A stretch of 64,000 nt of DNA from an uncultured Allobosea sp. (GTDB taxonomy: Bacteria > Pseudomonadota > Alphaproteobacteria > Rhizobiales > Beijerinckiaceae): contig NZ_CAMFKW010000024.1 in the NCBI RefSeq assembly GCF_945957345.1, forward strand, positions 1 through 64,000, written 5' to 3'. The notes beneath the pieces were generated by a model, which was given only the letters and a program-made list of their open reading frames with translations, had not been told where the DNA came from and ran no database searches. A program made the translations under genes and the position numbers. Shown here piece by piece: positions 42,340 to 63,278 of the stretch. The first letter of the stretch is position 1. Each line of letters opens with the position of its first letter.

Positions 42340-43824
42340 TCAATCCAGCGGATAAACCGGCCGGCGCAGGCGTTTGTAGGGCAGGCCGGCGATTCGGCTG
42401 GTGCAGGGGCCGGGCGTCGTCACGGTGAAGCTGCCCTTGGCGATCTTGTCATAGGCGCGCCTATGCGCGACCGCAGCCTTCACGCCGATCGCCTTCAGCG
42501 TCTCTGGTTGGATACCCTGCGAGCGGAGCTGGCCGAGATCGAAGGGCGGGGTCTTGCGGCTGCTCAGCAGCACGGTGACGCCCTCGACCTGCACAACCAC
42601 GCAAGGACCCATGCTGAAATGCGAGCCTTGCGACGCCGCGAGGTGGCTGTTGAGGTCTTCCAGCGCGAATTCGCCGTCGCTGGCACTGACGAAGCTGGCT
42701 TCGATTTCGACCGGGCCCTCGGCGATGGCGCTGCCCTTGCCGCCGATCGAGAGCCTGCGGATCTCGCCTTGTTTCGCGCCGGCCATCGCGGCGACGGCGG
42801 CCGGATCAGCGATGGCGACCGCGCAATTCCCGACGCCGTGGCGCAGGAAGGCGCGCAGCACCGAGGTGGCGTCGCCCGGCGCCCCGCCGCCGATATTGTC
42901 CGCCGGCTCGACCACGATATAGGGCCCGCCGGAGGAGCGCAGGATTTCAGCGACGGCTTCGTCGATGTCCCGTTCGGTCGGCAGGCCGAACTCGCGTAAT
43001 TCGGTGGTGGTTGCGGTCAGGCGCTCCAGCGCATTGCGGGCCGCCGCTTCCGGGCCGGTGAAGGCGACTGCGAAGGCGACGCCGGCTTCGGGTACATCCG
43101 AGAACGAATAGCCGCCGACGACATTGGCGACCCAGATATCCGGGTTCTCCTGTTCTATCCGGCGGGCCAGAGCCTCTAGGTCGCGCATCGGCCGGTCGGC
43201 CGTGCCGGTGCCGGTCGGCGGCCAGATCACGGGCGCGTTGCAGGAGAGCATATGCGGCAGCTCGCCACTATCGAGCGATCGCGCCAACAGCTTCGCCGAG
43301 CGGACAGCGGATTCGCGGGCGTCCGTATGTGGGTTCTCGCGATAAGCGACGAGGGCGTTGGCATTTCGGGCCATGGCCGCTGTGAAATTGGCGTGCAGGT
43401 CGAAGACGCCGAAGACCGGGAGCGTCTCGCAGCCCGGTACCGAGCGGATATGAGCGAGCAGCATGCCCTCCGGATCGCAGCAGCGGGTGGTGACCATGGC
43501 GCCGTGCAGGGCGAGCCAGATGCCGTCGAGCCTGCCATTCGCCAGGGCGTCTTTCAGTCCGGCGTCGAATTCGGCGAGGAAGCGCTGGAACACGGCATGG
43601 TCGACCGTGCCGGCGGGCAGGGCGGAGTAGTCCACCGTCGGCAGGACCTCCCAGCCTTCGGTTTCCGCCACTTCGAGAAAGCCGTCGACCGTCGAGCCGT
43701 CGCCGCGGCGGGCCAGCAATTCCGCGCCCCTGCGGATGGTGAAGTCGGCAAGCGTCGTCTCCTCGTCGACGAAACTATGGGTCTCGTGGAAGAGCGATCC
43801 GAGCAGGATGCGGTGGCTGGACAT
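42340..43824 (-). CDS. M81 family metallopeptidase (MlrC-like), paralogue 1
   Basis: 494 residues, full-length M81/MlrC fold. Putative metal and active-site blocks: GSLFHETHSF (near residue 13), LALHGAMVTT, VFGVFDLHANFT and YRENPHTDARE; C-terminal RRPVYPLD is a family mark. The type member, MlrC, hydrolyses the linearised products of microcystin. It is transcribed away from the paralogue at 44005, and the two genes share one operator (43897-43915). Substrate here unknown. Confidence 0.92.
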   Translation of the reverse strand: MSSHRILLGSLFHETHSFVDEETTLADFTIRRGAELLARRGDGSTVDGFLEVAETEGWEVLPTVDYSALPAGTVDHAVFQRFLAEFDAGLKDALANGRLDGIWLALHGAMVTTRCCDPEGMLLAHIRSVPGCETLPVFGVFDLHANFTAAMARNANALVAYRENPHTDARESAVRSAKLLARSLDSGELPHMLSCNAPVIWPPTGTGTADRPMRDLEALARRIEQENPDIWVANVVGGYSFSDVPEAGVAFAVAFTGPEAAARNALERLTATTTELREFGLPTERDIDEAVAEILRSSGGPYIVVEPADNIGGGAPGDATSVLRAFLRHGVGNCAVAIADPAAVAAMAGAKQGEIRRLSIGGKGSAIAEGPVEIEASFVSASDGEFALEDLNSHLAASQGSHFSMGPCVVVQVEGVTVLLSSRKTPPFDLGQLRSQGIQPETLKAIGVKAAVAHRRAYDKIAKGSFTVTTPGPCTSRIAGLPYKRLRRPVYPLD

Positions 43825-43882
43825 GACCGATTGTAGCTCCAGGCTTGCGAGGCCTATCCATCTCCGCCGCCGATCTGTTCCG

Positions 43883-43929
43883 GATCAAGCCTGCATTGTT
43901 TCGTCTAAGGGAACGCGGGTGCTTTGACA
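43883..43929. promoter_or_regulatory. Divergent promoter pair with a shared TGTTTC-N7-GGAACG operator
   Basis: Operator TGTTTC-GTCTAAG-GGAACG at 43897-43915. Exactly 8 bp to its right is TTGACA (43924-43929), a -35 for the plus-strand M81 gene; exactly 8 bp to its left, on the minus strand, is TTGATC (43888-43883), a -35 for the minus-strand M81 gene. The same operator and 8-bp gap recur at 46781 and 52187. Confidence 0.72.
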
Positions 43930-44004
43930 GGCTGCGCCTCGACCTCGTTTCATGGCACGGGCAGGCAGTCCGAAGAGGCGGCTGCTGCGCCTGATCGAGA
44001 GAGC

Positions 44005-45471
44005 ATGCGGATGCGCGTTTTCACTGCGTCGCTGGCGACGGAAACCAATACCTTCGCGCCGCTCTTCGTCGATCGCAGCGCCTTCGAGGGCGGCTTCTAC
44101 TGCCCGCCCGGCACGCATCCGGACACGCCGACGCTCTGCTCGGCGCCGACCGTCGCGGCGCGCCGCCGCGCCGCCAGCGAAGGCTACGAACTGGTCGAGG
44201 GCACGGCGACCTGGGCCGAGCCGGCGGGCCTCGTCTCGCAGGAGGGGTATGAGAGCCTGCGCGACGAAATCCTCGACCAGCTCAAGGCGGCGCTGCCGGT
44301 CGATGTCGTGCTGCTCGGCCTGCATGGCGCGATGGTTGCGCGCGGCTATGACGATTGCGAGGGCGACCTGATCGCGCGGGTGAGGGCGCTGGCCGGGCCG
44401 GATTGCGTTATCGGGGCCGAGCTCGACATGCATTGCCATCTGACGGCTGAGATGGTCGCGGGCGCCGACATCATCGTCGCCTTCAAGGAGTTCCCGCATA
44501 CGGATTTCCTGGCGCGGGCCGAGGACCTGCTGGAACTCTGCCTAAGGACTGCGCGCAAGCAGGTGAAACCGGTCAGTGCGGTGTTCGATTGCCGCGGGCT
44601 TGCCGCCTTCATGACCAGCCGGGAGCCCGGCCGTAGCTTCGTCGATCGACTTTTGGCGATGGAGGGTCGGGACGGCATCCTCTCGATCTCGGTCGCGCAT
44701 GGCTTCCAGGCGGCGGATGTCGCCGATGTCGGGACCAAGGTGCTGGTGATCGCCGATGGCGACGAGGCCAAGGCGGCGACATTGGCGAAGCAGCTCGGCC
44801 TCGAAATCCTGCGCTGGGGGCAGGGCGCTTCGCCGAAGCACCACAAGCCGGAGGAGGGCATCGCGGCCGCTCTCCAACTGGCGCAGCCCGGCAAGCCGGT
44901 GGTGCTGGCGGATCGCTGGGACAATCCGGGCGGCGGCGTCGCCGGCGATTCCTCGGTGATGGTCGAGGCGTTGCTGCGGCATCCCGAGGTGCCGGCGGCG
45001 ATCGGGGCGATGTGGGACCCGGTGGCGGTCAGCCTGTGCCGGGCGGCCGGCGTCGGTGCCGAGATTCCCTTGCGCTTCATCGGCAAGGCCGCCCCGTCAT
45101 CGGGACGGCCGATCGATGCGGTGGTGACGGTCACCGGCATGACCGCGGACCTGCTCATTCCCTTCGAGCAGAGCTGGGTTTCACTGGGGCCTGCCGCGGC
45201 GATCCGGATCGGCCAGTTCGATATCGTGCTGGCCTCGACGCGAGCGCAGACATTCAGCCCGCCGGTCTTCACCAATCTCGGCATCGATCTGAGCACCAAG
45301 AAGGTGGTGGTGGTGAAATCCTCCAACCATTTCCACGCCGCCTTCGCGCCGATCGCGGCACAGGTTCTTTATCTCGACAGTGGTGGACCCTATCCGCCCG
45401 ATGCGAGCAAGATCCCCTATACCAAGGTGAAACGCCCCTTCTCTCCGCTGGACCCGAATCCATGGCTGTGA
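44005..45471 (+). CDS. M81 family metallopeptidase (MlrC-like), paralogue 2
   Basis: 488 residues. Family blocks: ASLATETNTFAPL near the N-terminus, LLGLHGAMVARG, GAELDMHCHLT, FKEFPHTDFL, and DRWDNPGGGVAGDSSV. C-terminal VKRPFSPLD matches the YPLD-type end. The ATG at 44005 (or 44011) with GAGAG upstream was chosen; the frame is open to 43924. It overlaps the following lyase gene by 10 bases, so both act together. Confidence 0.9.
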   Translation: MRMRVFTASLATETNTFAPLFVDRSAFEGGFYCPPGTHPDTPTLCSAPTVAARRRAASEGYELVEGTATWAEPAGLVSQEGYESLRDEILDQLKAALPVDVVLLGLHGAMVARGYDDCEGDLIARVRALAGPDCVIGAELDMHCHLTAEMVAGADIIVAFKEFPHTDFLARAEDLLELCLRTARKQVKPVSAVFDCRGLAAFMTSREPGRSFVDRLLAMEGRDGILSISVAHGFQAADVADVGTKVLVIADGDEAKAATLAKQLGLEILRWGQGASPKHHKPEEGIAAALQLAQPGKPVVLADRWDNPGGGVAGDSSVMVEALLRHPEVPAAIGAMWDPVAVSLCRAAGVGAEIPLRFIGKAAPSSGRPIDAVVTVTGMTADLLIPFEQSWVSLGPAAAIRIGQFDIVLASTRAQTFSPPVFTNLGIDLSTKKVVVVKSSNHFHAAFAPIAAQVLYLDSGGPYPPDASKIPYTKVKRPFSPLDPNPWL

Positions 45472-46766
45472 CTGCTTCCGCCCCGCTCCCGCGCCTCTCG
45501 CTCGAAGAGATCGAGCACCAGCGCCTCGATGTGCTGGTGAAGGGTCTGCCGCCGGGTGCGTCGCTCAGGCTCGGCGATGTCGGCAAGCAGGGCTGGAACG
45601 TGCTCGCCGGCGACATGCCGATGCCGCTCGCGGTGATCCGCGAAAGCGTGCTCAAGGCCAACAGCGCCTGGATGAGCGCCTTCAGCGCCGTGAATGGTCT
45701 GCTGATCGCGCCGCATGGCAAGACCACGATGGCGCCGCAGCTCTTCGACCTGCAGATCGCCGATGGCGCCTGGGCGATCACCGTCGCGACGATGCAGCAA
45801 CTGGCTGTCGCCCGGCATTTTGGCGTCAAGCGCGTCATCCTCGCCAACCAGCCGATCGGGCGGCAGGAAATCACGGCCTGTTTCGAGGCGCTGCGCGAGC
45901 CGGGCTTCGAGCTCTATTGTCTCGCGGACAGCGTCGCCGGGGTTGGCCTGCTGGCGGAGGCGGCGAAGGGGCATGCGGGTGCCAATCCGCTGCGCATTTT
46001 CGTCGAAATCGGCTTCATGGGTGGACGCACGGGTGCGCGGACTCGTGAGGAGGCGCTGGCCGTGGCGCGGACCGTCGCGGGCGCGCCGGGCCTGCGGCTC
46101 GCCGGATTCGAATGTTTCGAGGGCCTGCATAGCGACACGGCCGGCGCCGATCGATTGCTCGGCGAGGTCGTCGCGGTTGCGGCGGCTGCGGAGGGCGAGG
46201 GGTTGTTGGGGCCGGAGCCGATGGTGCTCTCCGCCGGCGGAACCTCGCTGTTCGACCGGGTCGGCGAGGCGTTCAACGCCGCCGCCTTCAAGCGGCCGAT
46301 CGTCAAGGTGCTGCGCTCCGGCTGCTACTTGACCCATGATTCGACGGCCTATTCGGCAGCATTTCGGCGGATCACGCTGGAGACCAGCCTGAAGCTGCCT
46401 TCGGGCGGGCTGGAGCCGGCGCTCGAAGTCTGGGCCTATGTCCAGTCGCGGCCTGAGCGCGGGCGCAGCCTGCTCACTGTCGGCAAGCGCGACATCTCGT
46501 TCGATTCCGGCATGCCGGTGCCCTTGCGCTGGTATCGGCCGGGTGGGGTGATGAAGCGGCCGGAGCCGATGCCGGCCGGCCATACCGTGCTCGGGCTCAA
46601 CGACCAGCATTGCCATCTCGGCACGCCTGAGGAGAGCCCGCTGCAGGTCGGCGACATGGTCGCCTTCGGCATCGGCCATCCCTGCACGACTTTCGACAAA
46701 TGGGCGGTGCTGATGCTGGTCGACGACGACTGGACCGTCACCGGCGCAATTCGGACCTTCTTCTGA
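45462..46766 (+). CDS. PLP-dependent D-amino-acid deaminase / D-threonine aldolase-like enzyme
   Basis: 434 residues, fold type III (alanine-racemase-like barrel then a C-terminal D-serine-dehydratase-like domain). The Schiff-base Lys is in IAPHGKTTMAPQLFD (about residue 88). The C-terminal metal site is clear: NDQHCHLG, and GHPCTTFDKW. Enzymes of this group deaminate or cleave D-serine, D-threonine and related amino acids. It overlaps the end of the M81 gene by 10 bases, which suggests that peptide cleavage feeds this enzyme. Confidence 0.85.
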   Translation: MAVTASAPLPRLSLEEIEHQRLDVLVKGLPPGASLRLGDVGKQGWNVLAGDMPMPLAVIRESVLKANSAWMSAFSAVNGLLIAPHGKTTMAPQLFDLQIADGAWAITVATMQQLAVARHFGVKRVILANQPIGRQEITACFEALREPGFELYCLADSVAGVGLLAEAAKGHAGANPLRIFVEIGFMGGRTGARTREEALAVARTVAGAPGLRLAGFECFEGLHSDTAGADRLLGEVVAVAAAAEGEGLLGPEPMVLSAGGTSLFDRVGEAFNAAAFKRPIVKVLRSGCYLTHDSTAYSAAFRRITLETSLKLPSGGLEPALEVWAYVQSRPERGRSLLTVGKRDISFDSGMPVPLRWYRPGGVMKRPEPMPAGHTVLGLNDQHCHLGTPEESPLQVGDMVAFGIGHPCTTFDKWAVLMLVDDDWTVTGAIRTFF

Positions 46767-46780
46767 CGCGCTTCCGAATC

Positions 46781-46836
46781 TGTTCCTTCTGGTGAAACCT
46801 GCAATCCTTGACGTGAATTCAGGCCGTTCCTAGCCT
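46781..46836 (+). promoter_or_regulatory. Operator TGTTCC-N7-GAAACC with -35 TTGACG, upstream of the first peptide ABC operon
   Basis: Operator 46781-46799; 8 bases (TGCAATCC) later -35 TTGACG at 46808-46813; weak -10 TAGCCT at 46831-46836 with a 17-bp spacer. The 33 bases from the operator to the -35 are nearly the same as at 52187. Confidence 0.75.
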
Positions 46837-46981
46837 GCATCTCACAGAGGGAAGGCCCGCCATCCGCGGCGCGGACGAGACGGGCCAAGCGGCGATGACG
46901 GGAAGCACGGCGAAAGCCGGCTCCGGTTTCGCGCGAAATCGGCCAGCTTGGCCGGCAAGCAGGATGCTGGGAGGATCGTTC

Positions 46982-48577
46982 GTGACGACACCGCCATTGC
47001 CCATGGCCGACGAAACCGATGTCGCTGAAGGCCTATGCCGGCGCAGCCTGCTGCAACTGCTGACGGTGGGCGGCGCGGCGTTGTTGGCGCCCGGCCTGTG
47101 GAGCAGCCTGGCTCAGGCTCAGGCCCCGGTTGCGGGTGGCACGCTGACGATCGGTGCCGATGCCGACCCGATCGGGCTCGACCCGGTCACGGTCAACGCC
47201 TTCTCGTCCTACGATTTCACCAGCCTGCTCTATACCGGCCTGCTGCGCTGGAACGCCCAGATGAAGGTCGAGCCCGATCTGGCGGCGGGCTACGAGCAGC
47301 CCGATGCGAAGACCTATGTCTTCAAGCTCAGGCAGGGCGTGAAATTCCATAACGGAAAGGATTTCTCCGCCGCCGATGTGAAGCATACCTTCGACCGGAT
47401 CATGAACCCGGCGACGGGCAGCCGGCTCAAGGCGCTCTATTCCAGCGTCGAGTCGGTGACGGTGGTCGATCCTTTCACGGTGAAGTTCCAGCTCAACGCG
47501 ACCGATGCGGCCTTCCTCGGCAATCTCGCCAGCAACCCGAACGGCGCCATCGTGCCGGCCGGCGTCGAGAACCTCGCGACCCAGCCGGTCGGTACAGGGC
47601 CTTTCGCTTTCGAGGCCTATCAGCCGAACCAGCAATTCTCGCTGACGCGCTTCGACGGCTATTACGAGAAGGGCGAACCCTATCTCGCGAAGGTGGTCTT
47701 CAAGTTCTACAAGGATCAGGCGACGCTGACCTCGGCGCTGCGCTCGCGCGCCATCGACATGACCTGGGTGAAGGACCCGAAGGTCGCGACCGCGATCGCG
47801 CGGGCCTCGCAGAATTTCGTTTCGGCGCCCGGCCAGACCTCGCGGACCTTCCCGATCTGGCTGAACATGAAGGCCAAGCCCCTGAACGACGTGAAGGTGC
47901 GTCGCGCGCTCAGCCTCGCGACCGATCGCAAGGCCTGCCTCGACACCGTGCTCGGCGGCGCCGGCAAGGTTGGTGCGATGATCCCGGAAAGCCAGGTCGG
48001 CGGCTATGACGGCGTGAGCGAACTGCCCTATTACAAGCACGACCCGGCGGCGGCGAAGGCGCTGCTGGCCGAGGCCGGCTATCCCAACGGGATCGATCTC
48101 GGCGACTATATCGTCGTCGCGGCCAATCCTCTGGACGTTGCCTGCGCGCAGATCCTGCAGCAGCAATGGCAGGCGGCCGGCATCACCGTGAAGCTGGTGC
48201 CGATGGAGACCGCGCCGCTCCTGGCCAAATGGGCGAGCGGCGACTGGCCGACGCTGCTCTCGGTCGCGCTGTCCTGGACGCCCGATCCGGATGGCATTTT
48301 CCAGTACATCACCTCGACCAGCGGCTACGGCAAGGCGATGGGCTCGAATGATCCCGAACTGGACAAGATGATCGCCGAGGCACGGTCCGAGCTCGACGTG
48401 CCCAAGCGCGCAGCCAAGAACCAGGCGATCCAGAAACGCATCGCCGAGAACGCCTATGTCATCCAGATCTACCAGTATCCGCTGCGCTGGGAGATCTGGT
48501 GGAACTACGTTCAGGGCTATGTGCCCCTCGCCGCGAATATCCGCTCTTTCGTGCGTACGACATGGCTGAAGAAATAG
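46982..48577 (+). CDS. Peptide/dipeptide ABC transporter substrate-binding protein 1
   Basis: 531 residues from a GTG at 46982 that has GGGAGG 8 bases upstream. Twin-arginine signal (LCRRSLLQLLTVGG, about 18-32) then a family 5 solute-binding fold: GGTLTIGADADPIGLDPV, DAKTYVFKLRQGVKFHNGKD, GTGPFAFEAYQPNQQF. It binds oligopeptides or similar solutes in the periplasm. First gene of a five-gene import operon (receptor, two permeases, two ATPases). Confidence 0.92.
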   Translation: MTTPPLPMADETDVAEGLCRRSLLQLLTVGGAALLAPGLWSSLAQAQAPVAGGTLTIGADADPIGLDPVTVNAFSSYDFTSLLYTGLLRWNAQMKVEPDLAAGYEQPDAKTYVFKLRQGVKFHNGKDFSAADVKHTFDRIMNPATGSRLKALYSSVESVTVVDPFTVKFQLNATDAAFLGNLASNPNGAIVPAGVENLATQPVGTGPFAFEAYQPNQQFSLTRFDGYYEKGEPYLAKVVFKFYKDQATLTSALRSRAIDMTWVKDPKVATAIARASQNFVSAPGQTSRTFPIWLNMKAKPLNDVKVRRALSLATDRKACLDTVLGGAGKVGAMIPESQVGGYDGVSELPYYKHDPAAAKALLAEAGYPNGIDLGDYIVVAANPLDVACAQILQQQWQAAGITVKLVPMETAPLLAKWASGDWPTLLSVALSWTPDPDGIFQYITSTSGYGKAMGSNDPELDKMIAEARSELDVPKRAAKNQAIQKRIAENAYVIQIYQYPLRWEIWWNYVQGYVPLAANIRSFVRTTWLKK

Positions 48578-48611
48578 GTTCGGCCTGCCGCCTCACGGCG
48601 GAGCTCTGTCG

Positions 48612-49553
48612 ATGACGCGCTTCGTCCTCGGGCGTCTCGCCTGGATGGCCGCGATCCTGCTCGGTGTCTCCTTCGTCGCCTTCATGCTGATGCGGGCCAT
48701 CCCCGGCGATTTCGCCATCGCCGCGGCAGGCTCGCAGAGTGTCGCGCCCGAAGTCCTGGCGACGATCCGGCGCGACCTCGGTCTCGATCAGCCGCTGATG
48801 GCGCAATACCTGCACTGGCTCGGGTCTGCGCTGACCGGCGATTTCGGGAGGTCCTTCGTCACCAGGCAGCCGGTGCTCGGGGAATTGCTCAGCCGGCTTG
48901 CCGTCACCGTCCAGCTCACGCTGCTCGCCGCGGTCATTGCCGCCGTGATGGGCGTCGCTTCCGGGCTCGCGGCGGCGCGCTTGCGCGGCGCGGCCGACTG
49001 GCTTGTCCGGCTCTGGAACGGGCTGATGCTGGCGGTGCCGAACTATGTCGTGGCGACGCTGATCGTGCTGCTTTTCGGGCTTTATTTCCCGGAGATCACG
49101 GTGCTCGGCTACACGCCCTTTCTTGAGAGCCCGCTCGGCAATCTCGCCAGCCTGCTGCTGCCGGCCTTCGCGTTGGCGCTCGCGGTCTCGGTAACGATCG
49201 CCGAGAACACGCGGGCTGCCGTGCTCGAGGTCGCCAGCCAGGATTTCGTCATGGTCGCCCGCGCCAAGGGCCTGACGCCGGCCGCGATCCTGCGCGACTA
49301 CCTGATGCGCAACGCGCTGACGCCGGTCATCACGGCCGCCGGCCTCAAGATCGCGGCGCTGCTCGGCGGCAGCATTCTGGTCGAGACCATCTTCGCCATT
49401 CCCGGCATGGGCCAGTACCTGTTCGATTCCATCAACAACCGCGACTATCCGGTGATCCAGGCGATCGTGCTGGTCGCGGCCGGCATCGTCGTCCTCGTCA
49501 ATACGATGATCGACATCGCCTATGCCCGCGTCGACGCACGGGTGCAGATGTGA
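48612..49553 (+). CDS. Dipeptide-type ABC transporter permease (DppB family) 1
   Basis: 313 residues with six membrane segments; the first segment and the RAIPGDFAI-type loop are typical of DppB/OppB, and the coupling motif EVASQDFVMVARAKGLTPAAIL is present. The stop overlaps the next gene's GTG start (GTGA). Confidence 0.92.
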   Translation: MTRFVLGRLAWMAAILLGVSFVAFMLMRAIPGDFAIAAAGSQSVAPEVLATIRRDLGLDQPLMAQYLHWLGSALTGDFGRSFVTRQPVLGELLSRLAVTVQLTLLAAVIAAVMGVASGLAAARLRGAADWLVRLWNGLMLAVPNYVVATLIVLLFGLYFPEITVLGYTPFLESPLGNLASLLLPAFALALAVSVTIAENTRAAVLEVASQDFVMVARAKGLTPAAILRDYLMRNALTPVITAAGLKIAALLGGSILVETIFAIPGMGQYLFDSINNRDYPVIQAIVLVAAGIVVLVNTMIDIAYARVDARVQM

Positions 49554-50416
49554 GCGGGGCCATGCAGGACAGCGTGTCGGTCGTGGCGGCGCGCAAGCGG
49601 GCAGGGATCACGCAGGGCTGGCTGCTGCTCGGGCTTGGTCTCGCCATGCTGGCAGCGATGCTGGTGTTGACGATCTTCGCGCCGCTCCTCGCGCCCTACA
49701 GTCCTTCGGCCACCTCGCCGGATTCATTGGCGCCGGCCAGTGCTGCGCATTGGCTCGGCACGGATTCGATCGGGCGCGATGTGTTGAGCCGCCTGATCGT
49801 CGGCGGCCGGACGACGCTGCTCATCACGGTCTCGGCCGTGCTGGTCGCGCTGGTGGCTGGGCTGATCCTCGGGCTCGCGGCCGGCTATCTCGGCGGGCGC
49901 ATCGACGATATCATCATGCGCCTGCTCGATGTCGTCTTCGCCTTCCCGGTTCTGCTGCTGGCGATCGCGGTGGTGGCGGCGCTGGGGCCGACCGTGCCCA
50001 ACCTGATCCTGACCATCGCCATCGTCTACACGCCGGCCATGGCGCGGGTGGTCAGGGCGCCGGTGCTCAGCGTCAAGCAATGGGACCATGTCGAGGCGGC
50101 GCGCAGCGTCGGCATGAGCGAGATGCGGCTTGTGCTGCGCCATATCCTGCCGATCGTGGTCTCGCCGATCCTCGTCGCGACGAGCCTGACGTTGTCGCAG
50201 ACGATCTTCACGGTGACGGCGCTCTCCTTCCTCGGCCTCGGCCCGCCGCCGCCCGATCCGAACTGGGGCGGCATGCTCTCGGAAGCGCGTCAGTTCATGG
50301 AGCTCGCGCCCTTGACGGTGGTCGGGCCGGCGCTGGCGATCGTCTTCGCGACGCTGACCTTCATCATCATCGCCAATGGCTTGCGCGAGGTTCTCGATGT
50401 GGGGAGCGTGCGATGA
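49550..50416 (+). CDS. Dipeptide-type ABC transporter permease (DppC family) 1
   Basis: 288 residues. HWLGTDSIGRDVLSRLIVGG is the DppC signature; the coupling loop reads KQWDHVEAARSVGMSEM. Start is the GTG at 49550, overlapping the previous stop; an ATG at 49562 is possible. It overlaps the next gene by 4 bases. Confidence 0.92.
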   Translation: MSGAMQDSVSVVAARKRAGITQGWLLLGLGLAMLAAMLVLTIFAPLLAPYSPSATSPDSLAPASAAHWLGTDSIGRDVLSRLIVGGRTTLLITVSAVLVALVAGLILGLAAGYLGGRIDDIIMRLLDVVFAFPVLLLAIAVVAALGPTVPNLILTIAIVYTPAMARVVRAPVLSVKQWDHVEAARSVGMSEMRLVLRHILPIVVSPILVATSLTLSQTIFTVTALSFLGLGPPPPDPNWGGMLSEARQFMELAPLTVVGPALAIVFATLTFIIIANGLREVLDVGSVR

Positions 50417-52186: not shown

Positions 52187-52243
52187 TGTTCCTTCAGGTG
52201 GAACATGCAATCCTTGACGCGAAATATTTGACGCAACTACGCT
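52187..52243 (+). promoter_or_regulatory. Operator TGTTCC-N7-GGAACA with -35 TTGACG, upstream of the second import operon
   Basis: Perfect dyad at 52187-52205, 8 bases (TGCAATCC), then -35 TTGACG at 52214-52219 and a weak -10 (TACGCT, 52238-52243). The best match of the set. It starts 6 bases after the stop codon of the ATPase gene. Confidence 0.78.
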
Positions 52244-53895: not shown

Positions 53896-55434
53896 ATGAC
53901 AAAGCTGTCGCGACGTCAATTCGGCATGGCCAGCCTCGCGCTGGCGGGCGCGTCCCTGGCGGGAGCGTTGCCGGCCTCCGCCCAGCAGCTCAAGGGCGGG
54001 AGGCTGCGCGTCGCCGTGCTGAGCGAGCTGGCGAATTACGATCCGCAGCAGCTCTCGACGGTGAATTTCCACGTCATCAAGAACCTCTATGACAGCCTGA
54101 TCGAATACACGCCGGAAGGGAAGCCGGAGCCGAGCCTGGCGACTGAATGGACGATCGCGCCCGACAAGACCTCGGTGACGCTGAAGCTGCGCAGTGGCGT
54201 GACCTTCCATAGCGGCACGCCGTTCAAATCGGATTCCGTGCTGGCAACCCTGCAGAAGGGCGCCGATCCCAAGCGCGGCAAGAACGTGTTCGCGACGATG
54301 TCGATCGTCAAGGACTGGTCTGCGCCGGACGATGCGACGGTGACGATCAACTTCAAGGCGCCGGTGCCGGAGCGGCAGATCCTCGACCTGCTGCAGTTCC
54401 TGCTGCCGATCGATCCCAAGGGCATCGACACCGTCGAGACCGTGCCGGCCGGCACGGGCGCATATACGCTGGTCAACCGCGCGGTTGGTCAGAGCCTGAC
54501 ACTCAAGGCCAATCCGAAATACTGGCGCGAGAAGCAGCCGATCGCGCAGGATCTCGTCTTCACGGTGTTCAGCGAGGACGCCTCGGCGAGCGCGGCGTTG
54601 GAATCGGGCGCGGTCGACATCGTCTATAACGGCTCGTCGCGCAGCGCGGTCCGGCTCAAGAATGCCGGCTTCCAGGTCTTCGCCGGACCCGGGCCGCTGG
54701 TGCAGGTCTTCCGCATCAACTCGACGCGCGGACCGTTCCGCAACAAGGCGTTCCGGCAGGCCTTCAACTTCCTGATGGACCGGGCGAGCATCCTGCGCGT
54801 CGGCTATGCCGGCATGGGCAAGGTCGTGGCACTGCCCTGGGCGCCGGCGAGCCCGGCCTATGACGAGAGCTACACCAAGACCTATGCCTATGATCTCGAT
54901 AAGGCGAAGAAGCTGATCGCGGATTCCGGCCTCTCCGCCGACGAGATGAAGAACTGGAAGTTGCTGGTCAACGGCAGCGACGAGCCGTCCGTCGCGATCA
55001 GCCAGATCGTGCAGGGCTCGCTGCAGAAGGTCGGCATCCCCATCGAGCTCGACATGCGGCAGGGCGCGGAATACGTCACTGCGCTGCTCGGCGGCGATTT
55101 CGCGGCAACCTTCGGCGCCGTCGGCAATGTCCAGAAATTCCCGTCGCGCGTCGCCACCAACTCGATCTACCGCACCTCGGGCAACCCAATCCTGAAGGAC
55201 CCGCATCCGCATCCCGACTATGTCGCGGCGATCGCCAGGGTCGATAGCGCCTCGGGCGGAGTGGCCGAGGTCAAGGCGGCCTATGACAATCTCAACAAGG
55301 TCATGGTCGCAGAGGCCTTCGGCATCCCCACCAATTCCTACGATGTCGGCCTGATCGTCGCCTCCGACAAGGTTGGCGGCGTGACGCTCGATATCGACAA
55401 CCTCTTCGTCGCCCGCACCATCGGCTTCAAATGA
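53896..55434 (+). CDS. Peptide/dipeptide ABC transporter substrate-binding protein 2
   Basis: 512 residues. Twin-arginine signal (LSRRQFGMASLALAGASLAG), then the family 5 receptor fold: GGRLRVAVLSELANYDPQ, TLKLRSGVTFHSGTPF, AGTGAYTLVNRAVGQ. AAGGGGA lies before the ATG at 53896. Follows the M81 gene by 32 bases, so receptor and peptidase are co-transcribed. Confidence 0.92.
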   Translation: MTKLSRRQFGMASLALAGASLAGALPASAQQLKGGRLRVAVLSELANYDPQQLSTVNFHVIKNLYDSLIEYTPEGKPEPSLATEWTIAPDKTSVTLKLRSGVTFHSGTPFKSDSVLATLQKGADPKRGKNVFATMSIVKDWSAPDDATVTINFKAPVPERQILDLLQFLLPIDPKGIDTVETVPAGTGAYTLVNRAVGQSLTLKANPKYWREKQPIAQDLVFTVFSEDASASAALESGAVDIVYNGSSRSAVRLKNAGFQVFAGPGPLVQVFRINSTRGPFRNKAFRQAFNFLMDRASILRVGYAGMGKVVALPWAPASPAYDESYTKTYAYDLDKAKKLIADSGLSADEMKNWKLLVNGSDEPSVAISQIVQGSLQKVGIPIELDMRQGAEYVTALLGGDFAATFGAVGNVQKFPSRVATNSIYRTSGNPILKDPHPHPDYVAAIARVDSASGGVAEVKAAYDNLNKVMVAEAFGIPTNSYDVGLIVASDKVGGVTLDIDNLFVARTIGFK

Positions 55435-55474
55435 CGCTGCGTGGCGAGGCCGGGCGCCAGCACGGCGGCCGGCG

Positions 55475-56353
55475 ATGACGGAGACGCTTGCCCGGCTGAA
55501 AGGCCTGCTGGGCCGGCTGCTGGCCCGGCGCGGTGCGGCCCTGGGGCTCGGCTTCCTCGCGCTGGTGGCGCTTGCGGCGGCTTTCGCAACCGTGCTGCCC
55601 TTCGATCCGCTCTCGCAGAGCGTCGCCGCCTCGTTGCTGCCGCCCTCGGCCGAGAACTGGTTCGGCACCGACGAGCTCGGCCGCGATATCCTGGCCCGTG
55701 TCATCTACGGCGCGCGGACCTCGCTGCTGACGGCGGTCGGCGCGGTCGTGATCGCGGCGCTCGTCGGCGTGCCGATCGGGCTTGCCGCCGGCTTCTATGG
55801 CGACTGGCGCGATTCCCTGCTGATGCGCTGCATCGACGTGTTGCTCGCGCTGCCGAACATCCTGTTCGCGATGGCGCTGATCGCCGTGCTCGGCCGCAGC
55901 CAGGGGGCGGCGCTGATCGCGGTCGGCATTGCCGGCATTCCGGGCTTCGCGCGCATCGCGCGGGCGCAGGTCATGGCCCTGCGCCAGCTCGATTTCGTCA
56001 CGGCCGTGCGCGGCTTTGGCGGCAGCCCCGGCTACATCATGTTTCGAACGATCCTGCCCAACGCCTTGAGCCCGTTGGTGGTTCAAGCGATCGTGCTGGC
56101 CTCGATCGCGATCCTGCTGGAGGCGGCGCTGGCCTTCTTGGGGGTCGGCGTGCCGCCGCCGACGCCAAGCTGGGGCGAGATGCTGCGCACCGGCAAATCC
56201 TATCTCTACGAGGCGCCGACCTATGCGGTGCTGCCCGGAATCGTGCTGACGCTGACGATCCTCTCGCTCGACACGATCGGCCGGGCGCTGACCGCGATCC
56301 TCGACCGCGACGAGACCGATGCCAGCGGCGAGACGATCGGGGGCCGGCGATGA
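55475..56353 (+). CDS. Dipeptide-type ABC transporter permease (DppC family) 2
   Basis: 292 residues. ENWFGTDELGRDILARVIYGA is the DppC mark; the coupling loop reads LRQLDFVTAVRGFGGSPGY. The order DppC then DppB is the reverse of the first system. Its stop overlaps the next start by 4 bases. Confidence 0.92.
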   Translation: MTETLARLKGLLGRLLARRGAALGLGFLALVALAAAFATVLPFDPLSQSVAASLLPPSAENWFGTDELGRDILARVIYGARTSLLTAVGAVVIAALVGVPIGLAAGFYGDWRDSLLMRCIDVLLALPNILFAMALIAVLGRSQGAALIAVGIAGIPGFARIARAQVMALRQLDFVTAVRGFGGSPGYIMFRTILPNALSPLVVQAIVLASIAILLEAALAFLGVGVPPPTPSWGEMLRTGKSYLYEAPTYAVLPGIVLTLTILSLDTIGRALTAILDRDETDASGETIGGRR

Positions 56354-57297
56354 CGGCCTATGTCCTGCGCCGCCTGTTTCAGATGCTGCCGGTGCTGCTC
56401 GTCGCCTCCTTCGCGATCTTCGCGATGATCTATGCGGTGCCCGGCGGGCCGGTCGCGGTGATCGTCGGCGAGAATGCCGGGCCGGAGGAGATCGCGGCCG
56501 CGATCCAGCGCTACGGGCTCGACCGGCCGATGGTGGTGCAATACGCGGACTGGCTCGGGCGGGCCATGACGGGCGATTTTGGGCTCTCGCTGCACAGCCG
56601 CCAGCCGGTGTTGCAACTGATCGGCGAGCGTTTGCCGGCGACGCTGCAACTGGCGTTCGCGGCGATCATCGTCGCGCTCGTCATCGGTATTCCCGTCGCG
56701 ATTGCGAGCGCGGTCAAGCCAAATTCCTGGCTCGACCGGTTGCTCAGCGGCTGGAGCGCCTTGGCGCTGGGGGTGCCGACCTTCTGGCTCGGCATCCTCT
56801 TGATCCTGCTCTTCGCGGTGGAATTGCGCTGGCTGCCATCGGCCTCGCGCCACGTCCCGCTCTGGGAGTCGCCGCTCGATGCGCTGCGCAGCCTGGCGCT
56901 GCCAGCGATCACGCTCGGGACCTATGTCTCCGGCATTCTGGCGCGCTTCCTGCGGGCCTCGCTCATCGGCGAGGCGCGAGCCGATTACGTCCGCACCGCG
57001 CGCGCCAAGGGCGTGCCGGAGAACCGCATCGTCGGCCTGCACATCATGCGCAATGCGCTCCTGCCCTTCGTCACCGTCGTCGGTTTGATGATGGCGAATT
57101 TCATCGGCGGGGCCGTGGTGACCGAGGCGGTCTTCACCTATCCGGGACTCGGGCGCCTGCTGATCCAGGCGATCAGCACCCGTGACTACCCGCTGCTCCA
57201 GGGCTGCATCCTGGTGATCCTCGTCGCTTACATGCTGATCAACCTCACGGTCGACATGCTCTACGCCTGGATCGACCCGCGGATCGAATACCGATGA
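56350..57297 (+). CDS. Dipeptide-type ABC transporter permease (DppB family) 2
   Basis: 315 residues from an ATG at 56350. MTAYVLRRLFQMLPVLLVAS and YAVPGGPVAVIVGENAGPE are typical of DppB; coupling loop EARADYVRTARAKGVPENRIV. No ATPase gene follows; the next gene is a convergent regulator 5 bases away. Confidence 0.92.
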   Translation: MTAYVLRRLFQMLPVLLVASFAIFAMIYAVPGGPVAVIVGENAGPEEIAAAIQRYGLDRPMVVQYADWLGRAMTGDFGLSLHSRQPVLQLIGERLPATLQLAFAAIIVALVIGIPVAIASAVKPNSWLDRLLSGWSALALGVPTFWLGILLILLFAVELRWLPSASRHVPLWESPLDALRSLALPAITLGTYVSGILARFLRASLIGEARADYVRTARAKGVPENRIVGLHIMRNALLPFVTVVGLMMANFIGGAVVTEAVFTYPGLGRLLIQAISTRDYPLLQGCILVILVAYMLINLTVDMLYAWIDPRIEYR

Positions 57298-57302: not shown

Positions 57303-58094
57303 CTAGCGCAGATCGGCGGTCGGGCGCGAGCCGAGATGGGTCGAGATACCGGCCGCGACCTCGCGCAGCCGCGTGCCGACCTTGGCGGCAAGCGAATGCG
57401 GCATCCGCATCAAGGGCGCCGAGACGCTGAGCGCCGCGACGGGGTAGCCGTCCTCGTCGAGGATCGGCACGCCGACGCACATGGCTCCGTCCTCGTTCTC
57501 GCCCATCTCGGTGGCATAGCCGGTGCGGGCGACCTGCCGAAGCTGCCTCTCGATCTCCTCGCGTTCCAGCAGCGTGCGTCCGGTGCGCTCGGTGAGCGGC
57601 AGGTCGAGCTGCCTTTGCCGCTCCGCCTCGGGCAGGAAGGCGAGGATCGCCTTGCCGAGCGCGGTCGAATGCATCGGGTGGCTCTCGCCGATACGGGCCT
57701 GCATGCGCAGCGAGCGGTTGGCCTCAATCAGGTCGATATAGACGACGGTGCCGTTGCCCTTCACGGCGAGGTTCACGGTCTCGTTGAACTCCTGCATCAG
57801 CTCGATCATGGCCGGACGGGCGAGTTCGCGGACCTTGCTGACGCTGGCATCGGCGCGGGCGATGGCGCGCAGTTGCGGCCCGAGATTGTAGCGATCCGTC
57901 GCTCGGTTGTGATCGAGGAAGCCGGCGGCAGTCAGCGTCTGCAGATAGCGGAAGGTCGTCGTCTTCGGGATTCGCAATTCCTTGCTGACGGCGGTGAGCG
58001 CGATCTCGTGGCCGTGGCGCGCGACCAGCTCCAGCACCTTCAGCGCCTTCATCACCGGCTGCACGACATAGGGGTTGTCGGTTTTCCTGGGCAT
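57303..58094 (-). CDS. IclR family transcriptional regulator
   Basis: 263 residues: N-terminal winged helix-turn-helix (about 18-75, LTAVSKELRIPKTTTFRYLQT), then the IclR effector-binding GAF-like domain (about 90-255, with SLRMQARIGESHPMHSTALGKAILAF). The ATG at 58094 was chosen; the frame is open to 58298. It ends 5 bases from the convergent permease gene and is divergent from the aminotransferase. It is the only regulator in the island and the best candidate to bind the shared operator. Confidence 0.92.
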   Translation of the reverse strand: MPRKTDNPYVVQPVMKALKVLELVARHGHEIALTAVSKELRIPKTTTFRYLQTLTAAGFLDHNRATDRYNLGPQLRAIARADASVSKVRELARPAMIELMQEFNETVNLAVKGNGTVVYIDLIEANRSLRMQARIGESHPMHSTALGKAILAFLPEAERQRQLDLPLTERTGRTLLEREEIERQLRQVARTGYATEMGENEDGAMCVGVPILDEDGYPVAALSVSAPLMRMPHSLAAKVGTRLREVAAGISTHLGSRPTADLR

Positions 58095-58167
58095 TGCCGC
58101 TCCGCTGGTCGGGCCTTCTTGAGAGCCAGAATGACCAAGGCAAACGAATTCCGCAAGGCGAAACCCC

Positions 58168-58186
58168 TGTTCCTTTACGCGGAGCG
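58168..58186. promoter_or_regulatory. Weaker operator-like site between the regulator and aminotransferase genes
   Basis: TGTTCC-TTTACGC-GGAGCG: the left half matches the island operator, the right half 4 of 6. No TTGACR -35 at the 8-bp distance. Possibly an autoregulatory site. Confidence 0.4.
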
Positions 58187-58228: not shown

Positions 58229-59545
58229 GTGACAGGCAATAGCAGCCAGCAGGCGGGAGCCCTGCGCTTCGACGAATCTGCCCGGCAGATCGCGGCAAAT
58301 GCGCGTTTCATCGCAGGCGGCGTGAACAGCAATTTCCGGCTGGGCATGCAGCCCGGGCCGCTCGTCTTCGAGCGCGGCGAGGGCGCCTATCTGATCGATG
58401 CCGATGGCAACCGGATCATCGATTATTACTGCGGCATGGGCGCGACGGTGCTCGGCCATACGCCCGCGCCGGTGATCGAAGCGGTGAAGCGTCAGGCCGA
58501 GAAGGGCATCCTCTTCGCCGGCCAGATGCCGGTCGAGGCGGAAGCCGCGCAACTGATCTGCGAGCGCATCCCCTCGGCGGAGCGCCTGCGTTTCGGCTCG
58601 TCGGGCTCGGAGGTGGCACAAGCGGCGATGCGATTGGCGCGCGCCGCAACGGGCAAGCGCACCATCGTCAAGTTCGAGGGGCATTATCACGGCTGGTTCG
58701 ACAACATCCTGTGGTCGACCGCTCCGGGACTGAACGCGGCGGGGCCGGAAGAGGCGCCGACGCCGGTGATCGGCAGCAAGGGCCAGGACCCGGAAGCGGG
58801 CGAGGGGCTCTCGATCCTTGGCTGGAACGATCTCGCAGCGCTCGAAGCGCGGCTCGCCAAGGGCGATGTCGCGGCCGTGCTGATGGAGCCGGCGATGTGC
58901 AACCAGGGCGCCATCGCGCCCGCGCCGGGCTATCTGGAAGGCGCGCTCGCCGCCTGCCGCAAGCATGGCGCGATCCTGATCTTCGACGAGGTCATCACCG
59001 GCTTTCGGCTCGGGCGGGGCGGGGCGCAGGAGCGCTTTGGCGTTACGCCCGATCTCACCCTGATGGCGAAGGCGATCGCCAACGGCTTCCCGGTCGCGGC
59101 GATCGCGGGCCGGGCCGACCTGCTCGACCTCTTCGCCGACGGCGTGCTGCATGGCGGCACCTTCAACGCCCAGCCGGTCGCGATGGCGGCGCTTGTCGCG
59201 ACCCAGAAGGCGCTGACGCCGGAGCATTACGAGCGCAGTTCGGCCCAGGGCCAGCGCCTGCAGGACGGTATTCGCACCATCCTGAAGGAAACGGGCATCA
59301 AGGCACAGGTCGTGGGCTTCCCGCTGATGTTCCACGTCGCCTTCGGGCTCGACGTACCGGCGCGGAACTACCGGGAGGTCGCGCGCGCGGACAAGGCCGC
59401 CTATAGCCGCTTCGCCCATGAACTGCTCAAGCGCGGCGTGCGCGTGCTGGAGCGCGGTGCGTGGTTCGTGTCGTCGGAGCACGATGCGGCGGTGGTCGAT
59501 GCGACGTTTGCCGCGGTGCGGGACGCGGCGCGGGCGGTGGCTTAG
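58229..59545 (+). CDS. Class III PLP aminotransferase (glutamate-1-semialdehyde aminomutase-like)
   Basis: 438 residues from a GTG at 58229 with AGGAGG 7 bases upstream. Signatures: RFIAGGVNSNFRLG, GSSGSEVAQAAMRLARAATG, IFDEVITGFRLGRGG, and the Schiff-base Lys in TLMAKAIANGFPVAAIAG. Not the heme-pathway enzyme by context; relatives transaminate beta-amino acids or omega-amino compounds. Divergent from the IclR gene. Confidence 0.9.
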   Translation: MTGNSSQQAGALRFDESARQIAANARFIAGGVNSNFRLGMQPGPLVFERGEGAYLIDADGNRIIDYYCGMGATVLGHTPAPVIEAVKRQAEKGILFAGQMPVEAEAAQLICERIPSAERLRFGSSGSEVAQAAMRLARAATGKRTIVKFEGHYHGWFDNILWSTAPGLNAAGPEEAPTPVIGSKGQDPEAGEGLSILGWNDLAALEARLAKGDVAAVLMEPAMCNQGAIAPAPGYLEGALAACRKHGAILIFDEVITGFRLGRGGAQERFGVTPDLTLMAKAIANGFPVAAIAGRADLLDLFADGVLHGGTFNAQPVAMAALVATQKALTPEHYERSSAQGQRLQDGIRTILKETGIKAQVVGFPLMFHVAFGLDVPARNYREVARADKAAYSRFAHELLKRGVRVLERGAWFVSSEHDAAVVDATFAAVRDAARAVA

Positions 59546-59578
59546 ACGCTCGCTCGCCGGTTTCGAGCTTCTTCCTTT

Positions 59579-59619
59579 GTCATTCCGGGTTCGCGCCTAT
59601 GGCGCGCCCCGGAATGACA
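59579..59619. repeat. Dispersed palindromic repeat, family B, copy 3 (short)
   Basis: GTCATTCCGGG and CCCCGGAATGAC around a small GCGC-rich hairpin, 41 bases in all. Confidence 0.8.
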
Positions 59620-59718: not shown

Positions 59719-59723
59719 GATCG

Positions 59724-60917: not shown

Positions 60918-60929
60918 CGGAGAGCCTGC

Positions 60930-61712: not shown

Positions 61713-61741
61713 CGCTCCCCGGTTTTCCACCGGAACCACGT

Positions 61742-61771
61742 CGTCATCCCGGGGCTTGCCCCGGGATGACG
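61742..61771. repeat. Dispersed palindromic repeat, family B, copy 4 (minimal)
   Basis: CGTCATCCCGGGG-CTTG-CCCCGGGATGACG, nearly perfect. It may also serve as terminator of the CoA-transferase/crotonase operon. Confidence 0.82.
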
Positions 61772-61787
61772 GCGATTTTGCTTTGCG

Positions 61788-61881
61788 CGTCATGCTCGCC
61801 CTCGTGGCGAGCATCCACGTCTTGAGCACAGCTCTTTGAAGAGCGAAGACGTGGATGGTCGGGACGAGCCCGACCATGACG
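61788..61881 (+). repeat. Dispersed cloverleaf repeat, family A, copy 4
   Basis: Same elements as the copies at 24768 and 29895, with a longer AGCTCTTTGAAGAGC inner loop. Immediately next to a family B repeat, between convergent genes. Confidence 0.87.
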
Positions 61882-61898
61882 ACAACGTGGCGATAGCC

Positions 61899-63278
61899 TC
61901 AGCCCTGCTTCCCCAACTGCCCGAGTTCGTGGAGCAGGGCCGCGCCTGTGCGCAGGCCGCTATAGAAGCAGTCCAGCGTCATGTTCTCGTTAGGGGCGTG
62001 GTTGGCCTCGTCGTGATTGGCGTAGGGCGTGACGAAGGCCGGGATGCCGAGCATCTTGGTGAAGACGTAGTTCGGCAGGCTGCCGAAGCCGGCCGGGATC
62101 AGCAGGGGCTCCTCGCCCTGGGCCGCCACGAAGGCACGGCGCAGCGGTGCGGTATAGGGCGAGGCGATCGAGGTCTTGGAGGGCTGCATGCCCTTTTCCT
62201 CGCAGATGAACTCGACTTCGGGCGCGTGCTTTTCGACGTGAGCCCGGACCTTGCGCAGGATGTCCTCCGGGTCCTGCGCCTCGACGAGGCGGATATCGCA
62301 TTTCACCAGCGCTTCGTTCGGCAGCACGGTCTTGGTGCCCGGCCCGCCATAGCCGCCATGGAAGCCGTTGATCGTCAGCGTCGGGCGGAAGCAGAGGCGC
62401 TCGTAGAACGGGCGATCCGCCGGCGCGTCGAGGCGGGTGAGACCGACGCCCTTCTTGAAGGCCTCGATGTCGAGCGGCAGGCGCGCGACCGCTTCCAGCT
62501 CCTCCGCCGTCGGCGGTTCGACGGCATCGTGCAGGCCCTCGATCGTGATTTCGCCTTCGGGATTCTTCATTGTTGCGAGCAGATGGACCAGCGTCCAGAT
62601 CGGGTTCGGCACGACGCCGCCGAAATTGCCGGAATGGACGTCGCGGCTGGCATGGCGGCAGCGCAGGTCGAAGGAGACGACGCCGCGGGAGCCGAACTTG
62701 ATCGAGGGCGCGCCGCTGGCATGGCGCGGCCCGTCGGCGGTGACGGCGAGGTCGGCCTTGAGCAGATGCGGGTTGGCGCGGACGAAGCCGGCGATATTCG
62801 GGCTGCCGATCTCCTCCTCGCCTTCCAGCACGAGGATGACGTTGCAGGGCAGCTCGCCATGGACCTTGAGATGGGATTCGATCGCGAGGATCTGGGCGAA
62901 ATGCTGGCCCTTGTTGTCGCCGACGCCGCGCGCATAGAGTCGGCCGTCGCGGATCGTCGGCTCGAACGGGGGCGAGACCCACTTGTCCAGCGGGTCCGGC
63001 GGCTGCACGTCGTAATGGCCGTAGAGCAGAACTGTCGGCTTGCCCGGCGCCTTCTCCCAGCGCGCGACGACGACCGGATGGCCTTCGGTCGGGACAAGGC
63101 TGGTTTCCAGGCCGATCCCGGTGAGCATGTCGACGAGCAGCAGGCCGACCTCGGCGATGCCGATATTCTCTGCGCTGATGCTGGGATGGCGCAGATACGC
63201 GATGAGGCGGTCGAGAAAGGCGCTGCGGTTGGTCTCGATATGGTCGAAGACCGCGGCGAGTGCGTCTGAGGAAGCCAT
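61899..63278 (-). CDS. M20 family dipeptidase
   Basis: 459 residues. Metal-binding blocks: YGHYDVQPPDPLDKW, ARGVGDNKGQHFAQ, VLEGEEEIGSPN (catalytic Glu) and the late HDEANHAPNE. The dimerisation domain is at about 200-330. M20 enzymes of this type cleave dipeptides and similar amides in the cytoplasm. Convergent with the crotonase gene. The ATG at 63278 was chosen; the frame is open to 63329. Confidence 0.92.
   Translation of the reverse strand: MASSDALAAVFDHIETNRSAFLDRLIAYLRHPSISAENIGIAEVGLLLVDMLTGIGLETSLVPTEGHPVVVARWEKAPGKPTVLLYGHYDVQPPDPLDKWVSPPFEPTIRDGRLYARGVGDNKGQHFAQILAIESHLKVHGELPCNVILVLEGEEEIGSPNIAGFVRANPHLLKADLAVTADGPRHASGAPSIKFGSRGVVSFDLRCRHASRDVHSGNFGGVVPNPIWTLVHLLATMKNPEGEITIEGLHDAVEPPTAEELEAVARLPLDIEAFKKGVGLTRLDAPADRPFYERLCFRPTLTINGFHGGYGGPGTKTVLPNEALVKCDIRLVEAQDPEDILRKVRAHVEKHAPEVEFICEEKGMQPSKTSIASPYTAPLRRAFVAAQGEEPLLIPAGFGSLPNYVFTKMLGIPAFVTPYANHDEANHAPNENMTLDCFYSGLRTGAALLHELGQLGKQG

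Follow-up and report, generated by a model that had tools for sequence, protein, structure and literature searches.

The stretch of DNA analysed here (the window) comprises 64,000 nucleotides from an uncultured Allobosea sp. (contig NZ_CAMFKW010000024.1, positions 1 to 64,000), and between positions 42340 and 59545 it holds genes for three M81 metallohydrolases, a fold-type III pyridoxal phosphate (PLP) lyase, two ATP-binding cassette (ABC) importers, a class III aminotransferase and an IclR-family regulator. Four promoters of this gene set carry a common element, suggesting that the set is probably one regulon. The reading that we favour, with slightly less than even confidence, is that the regulon catabolises an imported amide compound, that one of the M81 enzymes, M81b, acts as an N-deacylase and that the lyase deaminates the D-2-amino-3-hydroxy acid thus released. 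The 17 open reading frames (ORFs) between 42340 and 63329 were checked against Pfam, and all of the genes named in a preliminary description of this DNA were located where it had placed them and belong to the families it had assigned. The closest relative of the lyase in a named genome (96% identity, locus L028) comes from Bosea sp. 47.2.35, and the genome is thus Bosea-like. The core features are as follows.

42340..43824, minus strand: M81a, M81 metallohydrolase of clade a (PF07364 and PF07171)
43898..43929, plus strand: shared promoter element 1, GTTTC-N7-GGAAC-N9-TTGACA, in the divergent M81a/M81b region, 75 bases 5' of M81b
44005..45471, plus strand: M81b, M81 metallohydrolase of clade b (PF07364 and PF07171), 42% identical to microcystinase MlrC (7YLQ)
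45462..46766, plus strand: LYA, fold-type III PLP lyase (D-ser_dehydrat and Ala_racemase_N; Lys87, His406-x-Cys408; nearest solved protein 3GWQ)
46782..46813, plus strand: shared promoter element 2, 81 bases 5' of SBP1
46895..48577, plus strand: SBP1, family 5 solute-binding protein of importer 1 (Pfam)
48612..49553, plus strand: PB1, DppB/OppB-type permease of importer 1 (Pfam)
49550..50416, plus strand: PC1, DppC/OppC-type permease of importer 1 (Pfam)
50413..51225, plus strand: ATD1, DppD/OppD-type ATPase of importer 1 (Pfam)
51222..52181, plus strand: ATF1, DppF/OppF-type ATPase of importer 1 (Pfam)
52188..52219, plus strand: shared promoter element 3, 129 bases 5' of M81c
52349..53863, plus strand: M81c, M81 metallohydrolase of clade c (PF07364 and PF07171)
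53896..55434, plus strand: SBP2, family 5 solute-binding protein of importer 2 (Pfam)
55475..56353, plus strand: PC2, DppC/OppC-type permease of importer 2 (Pfam)
56350..57297, plus strand: PB2, DppB/OppB-type permease of importer 2 (Pfam)
57303..58094, minus strand: IclR-family regulator, candidate regulator of the element (predicted start; the open frame extends to 58298)
58148..58179, plus strand: shared promoter element 4, ATTCC-N7-GAAAC-N9-TTTACG, 49 bases 5' of AT3
58229..59545, plus strand: AT3, class III aminotransferase resembling glutamate-1-semialdehyde aminomutase (below the HemL cut-off; predicted start)

The element, which was found by reading the intergenic regions, has the form RTTYC-N7-GRAAC-N9-TTKACR, a 17-base imperfect palindrome nine bases 5' of a -35-like box, and it precedes M81b with the lyase gene, importer 1, M81c with importer 2, and AT3. 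The pattern was derived from these four sites, which match it by construction. There are four matches in the window, against a mean of 0.00 in 100 shuffled sequences, and four in the whole 5.2 Mb genome, all of them in the window; the reversed pattern has none. Forty-five of 223 loci match the element, and all are cluster loci by their layout, nine of them being additional copies of sites already present in the window. Stretches were also scored with a matrix to which only the window's four sites had contributed; at a threshold of 22, it gave 20 sites at or above the threshold in 13 of 27 non-Bosea stretches (L041, L043, L044, L045, L047, L048, L050, L052, L054, L055, L110, L114 and L217), compared with a best score of 18.8 in 59 control stretches (981 kb). 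These sites precede M81b (L041, L114), M81c (or SBP2 in clusters with the substitute enzyme M81d) and AT3, in most cases M81c/importer 2 or AT3, and one of them (L110:3575) precedes no recognised cluster gene.

In whole genomes, one to three exact matches were found in eight of the 11 that have cluster genes, and none in each of six genomes of the same genera without the cluster; the backward pattern used as a control gave two matches in total over all 17. The element also lies 5' of an importer-1 operon (SBP1 87% identical) that is unlinked to the cluster, on another contig of genome G189. A gene of the mandelate-racemase/muconate-lactonising superfamily (L226:14795-15982) is situated 3' of that operon and could encode an extra pathway enzyme. 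In G015, G055 and G112 the element is found 5' of an importer adjoining an IclR gene (51-54%), AT3 (67-68%) and a further M81 gene, and G087 contains a fourth, presumably similar site, an exact match. We call these four genomes Chelatococcus-like because G015 groups with the Chelatococcus locus L041 in the M81 tree. The IclR protein encoded within the set would be the protein that binds the element.

The gene set recurs well beyond this genome. Lyase relatives were located at 113 loci, of which the best 80, all from named genomes, were mapped, and 43 cluster-type loci (the window included) were compared, some of them near-copies (e.g. L049 and L056) or cut by contig ends, with ortholog identity limits that we chose ourselves. 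Exactly three M81 genes of clades a to d are found in 30 of the 43, four in one, two in four, one in six and none in two. M81c and its substitute M81d are mutually exclusive (M81c in 35, M81d in three, neither in five). Gene order is common to Bosea, Chelatococcus, Microvirga, Devosia, Nitratireductor and Acuticoccus. Among the Bosea carriers are the cultured strains Bosea robiniae DSM 26672 (L030) and Bosea thiooxidans DSM 9653 (L042). The fullest form is that of Devosia (L044, L045), with AT3, a RidA gene and M81a on one strand and M81b, lyase, IclR, M81c, SBP2, two ATPases, PC2, PB2, SDR and Ldh_2 on the other, a further IclR gene separating M81a from M81b; RidA is present in most non-Bosea clusters. 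In one fixed set of 199 genomes of the family (M81b orthologs at 65% identity or more, lyase at 58% or more), orthologs of M81a, M81b, M81c and the lyase occur in 13, 11, 11 and 12 genomes, respectively. All three M81 genes occur together in ten, nine of which also have the lyase, and Fisher tests for the six pairs gave 1e-11 to 2e-16, related genomes being treated as independent. The co-occurrence of M81, lyase and importer genes in related genomes, on which the preliminary description had staked its proposal, was thus borne out.

It is hardly credible that the core consists of catabolic genes that have nothing to do with one another and lie together by chance in a GC-rich genome, an explanation refuted by the gene order shared across six genera, the co-occurrence and the common element. 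It does seem to fit the genes for a CoA-transferase (CAIB), a crotonase (ECH) and an M20 dipeptidase, also confirmed in the window, which look like mere neighbours. The preliminary description had placed them in the pathway. They are present in two, four and two of the 43 loci, respectively (many loci end before that point), only in near relatives, and they carry no promoter element; we therefore reject their membership. We also reject a plasmid-borne island as the rule, since a search of the plasmid collection at 1e-80 found nothing that matches M81c; one Microvirga lotononidis plasmid does have the cluster, with M81d and without M81c.

Parts of the set can separate. Importer 1 is absent from several Bosea clusters; in Microvirga lotononidis and G122 it adjoins PB2, and in G059 (L117) it continues into M81a. 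M81c occurs with importer 2 and AT3 in L116 and L138. These separate modules, together with the lyase-free clusters, would fit a general scavenging regulator under which the three M81 enzymes and the two importers would handle a variety of amide substrates instead of forming one linear pathway. We consider this unlikely, given that the same element precedes all four transcription units in Bosea and several elsewhere, and that M81d is found solely where M81c is missing (three loci).

The three M81 proteins each score over the Pfam cut-offs for PF07364 and PF07171, and they account for three of the ten matches to the M81 N-terminal family in the genome, one of which is a fragment. They had been described as mutually divergent, and they are: pairwise identities are 25.9% (a-b), 28.8% (a-c) and 29.2% (b-c), and in a tree of 78 M81 proteins a single branch sets each of them apart (22, 20 and 19 rows for a, b and c; support 100, 98 and 99), MlrC falling on the M81b side. 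The tree came from a quick search, has several long branches, and its rows had been labelled a, b or c beforehand by identity of at least 55%. The split thus predates the genera in which the clades are found. The zinc ligands of MlrC, E39, D167, H169 and H191 (PMC9982164, in the part available), are kept in the alignment by all three proteins, as are H133, D332, D341 and K464. Against three Bosea relatives, dN/dS is 0.11-0.17 for the M81 genes and 0.12-0.20 for the lyase gene. The retained zinc ligands, the low dN/dS and the recurrence in other genera argue that the M81 set is more than chance. The predicted structure of M81c (mean pLDDT 75.9) matches at E of 0.001 or less solely 3IUU and 7YLQ, the two known M81 structures.

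The preliminary description had drawn an analogy to microcystin degradation, and this proved weak. MlrC and the mlr cluster (7YLQ; PMC9982164, PMC12474180 and PMC4810221, as far as the accessible portions describe them) share with the present set the M81 fold and zinc ligands, and differ from it in the type of transporter. Ten residues are reported for the substrate site of MlrC in the accessible text of PMC9982164 (N41, W59, F67, E70, F96, D341, S392, Q468, S485 and R492), of which M81a retains one (D341), M81b four (N41, D341, S392 and S485) and M81c two (N41 and D341); in our alignment W59, F67, E70, F96, Q468 and R492 are conserved in none of the three. The NCBIfam model for MlrC (NF041767, cut-off 999 bits) gave 87.7, 394.7 and 125.8 bits for M81a, M81b and M81c. 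A Pfam search, which covered only the 17 proteins of the window, detected no family of an MlrA-type CAAX protease or an MlrB-type serine hydrolase. We therefore reject microcystin or other mlr-type degradation.

The lyase gene starts at 45462 and overlaps the M81b stop by 10 bases, as had been noted, and this overlap is kept: an ATG stands at the same 10-base overlap in 26 of the 31 loci in which M81b precedes the lyase (window counted), and in three of the other five it stands at a 4-base overlap. LYA is a protein of 434 amino acids with Ala_racemase_N and D-ser_dehydrat domains. Lys87, which the alignment and knowledge of the family suggest is the PLP lysine, and His406-x-Cys408 are conserved in 94 of 94 rows of the lyase alignment. 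A His/Cys metal pair is described for D-serine dehydratase and a His/Asp pair for D-threonine aldolase (PMC4401734, in the part available). LYA shares its domains and predicted PLP lysine with the family of these two enzymes (3GWQ, 3ANU, 4V15) and has the His-x-Cys pair of D-serine dehydratase, the combination expected of a fold III D-3-hydroxy-amino-acid dehydratase; it differs in being the operon partner of an M81 enzyme, and 3GWQ bears the name D-serine deaminase in its entry. Cys replaces the Asp of D-threonine aldolase, and the NCBIfam model for BhcC gave 68.6 bits against a cut-off of 690. In the oxidised-chitin (ong) pathway, a deacetylase step is followed by the fold-III enzyme OngC, a deaminase of glucosaminate, D-Ser and D-Thr, and growth depends on a RidA gene, ongD (PMC9537276, in the sections available). 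LYA may be OngC-like, judging from these published descriptions of OngC and not from its sequence.

The neighbourhoods of lyase and M81b relatives bear on the nature of the amide step. Around lyase relatives that lack an M81 partner we surveyed 105 hand-picked proteins of 178 predicted, and these included eight SMP-30/gluconolactonases, seven SDR, three RidA and three SBP_bac_5 proteins. On two annotated plasmids a lyase relative stands with RidA, a citrate-lyase-type aldolase, SDR and SMP-30, and in L155 a close relative (67%) lies on the same strand beyond importer, SDR and RraA-type aldolase genes. A NagA-like deacetylase is found in four of ten loci without M81b and in none of 33 with it (p 0.0017, related genomes again being treated as independent); the NagA-like protein of L048 scores 205.8 bits, under its cut-off of 225.65. 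The NagA-like gene of L049 (near position 7500) was counted as two pieces, perhaps owing to a frameshift or an assembly error. M81b relatives lie directly 3' of a lyase relative in L064, L065 and L102.

M81b relatives (53-54%) also occupy a recurrent cluster on rhizobial plasmids. At 1e-40, 354 plasmid records match M81b; 40 of them were listed, 11 of these had an annotated M81, and seven regions were examined. All seven have RidA, SDR and MurR/RpiR genes, six have carbohydrate-ABC genes (in H72 the ATPase alone is in view, and H48 ends with its plasmid), four a fold-III PLP enzyme of the D-threonine aldolase (D-TA) type and three a beta-N-acetylhexosaminidase. An eighth region, H74, carries no annotation. 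The three hexosaminidase regions (L233, L234 and L237) have a second, divergent M81 gene alongside, as well as RidA and an RpiR-type regulator; a sugar importer is visible in two of them, and the hexosaminidase is named as family 20 in two. The rhizobial regions hold a good part of the ong kit, M81 occupying the position of the deacetylase, and it is on this likeness that we read M81b as an N-deacylase feeding the lyase and an amino-sugar acid as the likeliest substrate.

We propose the following course for the pathway. The two family-5 (Opp/Dpp-type) importers would take up an amide-containing compound, whose amide bonds would be cut by the M81 zinc hydrolases (a, b and c, or a and b plus the substitute d), presumably in the cytosol. 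M81b would release a D-configured 2-amino-3-hydroxy acid by N-deacylation, its likeliest substrate being an N-acylated amino-sugar acid akin to N-acetylglucosaminate, and LYA would dehydrate and deaminate the freed acid to a 2-oxo-3-deoxy acid and ammonia. RidA, where encoded, would clear the imine, AT3 may take a second amino group, and SDR and the Ldh_2 dehydrogenase would finish the carbon skeleton in some genera. The adjacent IclR protein probably controls the regulon. A bolder extension, which we regard as doubtful, is that many M81 members work in partnership with a fold-III PLP deaminase as N-deacylases of amino-sugar acids or of D-2-amino-3-hydroxy acids of other kinds, and that three such enzymes act one after another in this regulon on a substrate containing three amides.

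Importer 1 (46895-52181) is a complete five-gene Opp-type set, and importer 2 (53896-57297) consists of a receptor and two permeases with no adjoining ATPase gene. The gaps M81c-SBP2, SBP2-PC2 and PC2-PB2 are 32, 40 and -4 bases, short enough to fit co-transcription, and the preliminary description of both transporters therefore holds. SBP1 and SBP2 both match PF00496, and their scores for the DppA equivalog (140.4 and 61.3 bits) lie under its cut-off of 1005. AT3 scores 335.1 bits for HemL (TIGR00713, cut-off 527.3), and a glutamate-1-semialdehyde aminomutase function was rejected on that ground; the predicted structure of AT3 was poor (mean pLDDT 59.1) and was not used.

Several observations weigh against our reading of M81b as a deacylase of amino-sugar acids within a single regulon, and some of them favour a peptide. 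It is possible, if on the doubtful side, that the compound degraded is an unusual peptide containing D- or beta-amino acids. The M81 enzymes would then be peptidases that act in series, the lyase would remove D-serine or D-threonine, and AT3 would act on a D- or beta-amino acid. The two importers belong to the peptide (Opp/Dpp) type, and M81b is nearest to MlrC, of whose substrate-site residues it keeps four; MlrC is a cytosolic peptidase that cleaves the Adda-Glu bond (PMC12474180, in the part available). M81b relatives (50-62%) in L123 (from the same genome), L151 and L152 adjoin Opp-type importers, with no RidA or lyase match, and four of five other M81 stretches examined in this genome adjoin such an importer. 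AT3 shows a weaker relationship to the aminotransferases of D-phenylglycine and beta-phenylalanine as well, and OngC accepts D-Ser and D-Thr too. M17 aminopeptidases are among the surveyed neighbours of lyase relatives (three of 105), the NagA-like replacement comes from about two lineages, and the rhizobial regions are a narrow selection whose PLP partner is a D-TA-type relative, 26-29% identical to LYA and not an ortholog. Pfam found no hexosaminidase, kinase or aldolase among the 17 window genes, and a search for RidA at 1e-12, which covered the window and not the remainder of the genome, found none. L108 and L140 keep M81a, M81b and M81c without the lyase, and M81a, M81c and AT3 have no settled step. 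The element is lacking in 14 of the 27 non-Bosea stretches (including G109, G131 (L059), G059, L138, L140 and L142), as it is from three importer-1 operons (in G059, G122 and Microvirga lotononidis), and outside Bosea it precedes M81b in Chelatococcus-like genomes only. Against the peptide stand the six MlrC residues found in none of the three M81 proteins, and the sugar importers, hexosaminidase, SMP-30, aldolases or RpiR regulators beside several M81b and lyase relatives. The preliminary description had proposed a pathway that imports and dismantles an unusual peptide or amide; the co-occurrence and the common element support the pathway, and M81b relatives, some with sugar-type and others with peptide-type neighbours, would fit the amide of either a peptide or an amino-sugar acid.

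A wider survey of M81 neighbourhoods found Opp-type importer genes in six of 40 stretches, drawn from the upper part of the E-value list and thus biased, and an importer permease in none of 19 random controls (a receptor fragment scoring 35 bits lay at the edge of one control). On other contigs of the present genome, in L123, L125, L126 and L127, an M81 gene adjoins an Opp/Dpp-type importer, in one case also next to a class III aminotransferase. A genome of another family (G254), with 18 M81 matches, has a group of three M81 genes beside an Opp-type importer (L188:8420-14981, in G254:C39), two of them about 50% identical to M81b and one 33% to M81c.

The closest parallel to the reading that we favour is the ong cluster of Pseudoalteromonas prydzensis (OngA, the deacetylase OngB, OngC, the RidA protein OngD, and KdgK; PMC9537276, so far as the available account goes). 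Both systems have an amide hydrolase followed by a fold-III PLP deaminase, in both the latter is annotated as a D-serine/D-amino-acid deaminase, and RidA and a beta-N-acetylhexosaminidase recur in most non-Bosea clusters and in three rhizobial M81b regions, respectively. The present set differs in having M81 zinc hydrolases in place of the D-aminoacylase-like OngB, ABC importers in place of an SSS symporter, two more M81 enzymes, a class III aminotransferase, an IclR gene and no kinase. The hexosaminidase OngA, the D-aminoacylase-like OngB and the KDG kinase all lack a counterpart by Pfam among the 17 window proteins. Paraburkholderia phymatum, which lies outside the Alphaproteobacteria, has genes of like types, compared here by annotation and not by orthology. 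Its Bphy_7644-7651, encoding an ABC importer, an M81 protein and a class III aminotransferase, are listed with jointly reduced expression in a table on nifA dependence in nodules (PMC8305402, in the part available). A full-text literature search, with most subscription journals outside its reach, found no title or abstract opening describing such a cluster or linking M81 to amino sugars and nothing joining D-glucosaminate, dehydratase and D-threonine aldolase, and MlrC was the only M81 member with a reported activity that it met.

Two further features of the window adjoin the set. The 178 bases between AT3 and CAIB contain a long inverted repeat (GTCATTCCGGG...CCCGGAATGAC, at about 59578-59618), possibly a terminator or a repeat element. 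At 39682-42276, an ORF of 859 amino acids on the plus strand runs antisense to an ORF of 819 amino acids that, judged by eye, resembles a P-type metal ATPase whose N-terminal part is rich in His; the former is probably a GC-rich artefact.

The source is a soil bacterium that shares with several related genera a probably co-regulated gene set, which seems to serve the import and breakdown of an amide compound; this may be an acylated amino-sugar acid. The M81 family (Pfam DUF1485) occurs widely, being present in 37 of 96 genomes sampled from the class to which the window belongs, and is otherwise known from one toxin-degrading enzyme; three different M81 enzymes in a conserved, probably co-regulated set make the real role of the family testable. 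Because its promoter element is defined, a regulator can be proposed and the chemistry of the lyase can be predicted, the set reduces the question of M81 function to a few assays. If the amino-sugar reading is true, rhizobia and their relatives would possess an amino-sugar-acid route of their own, with a deacylase from a new family.

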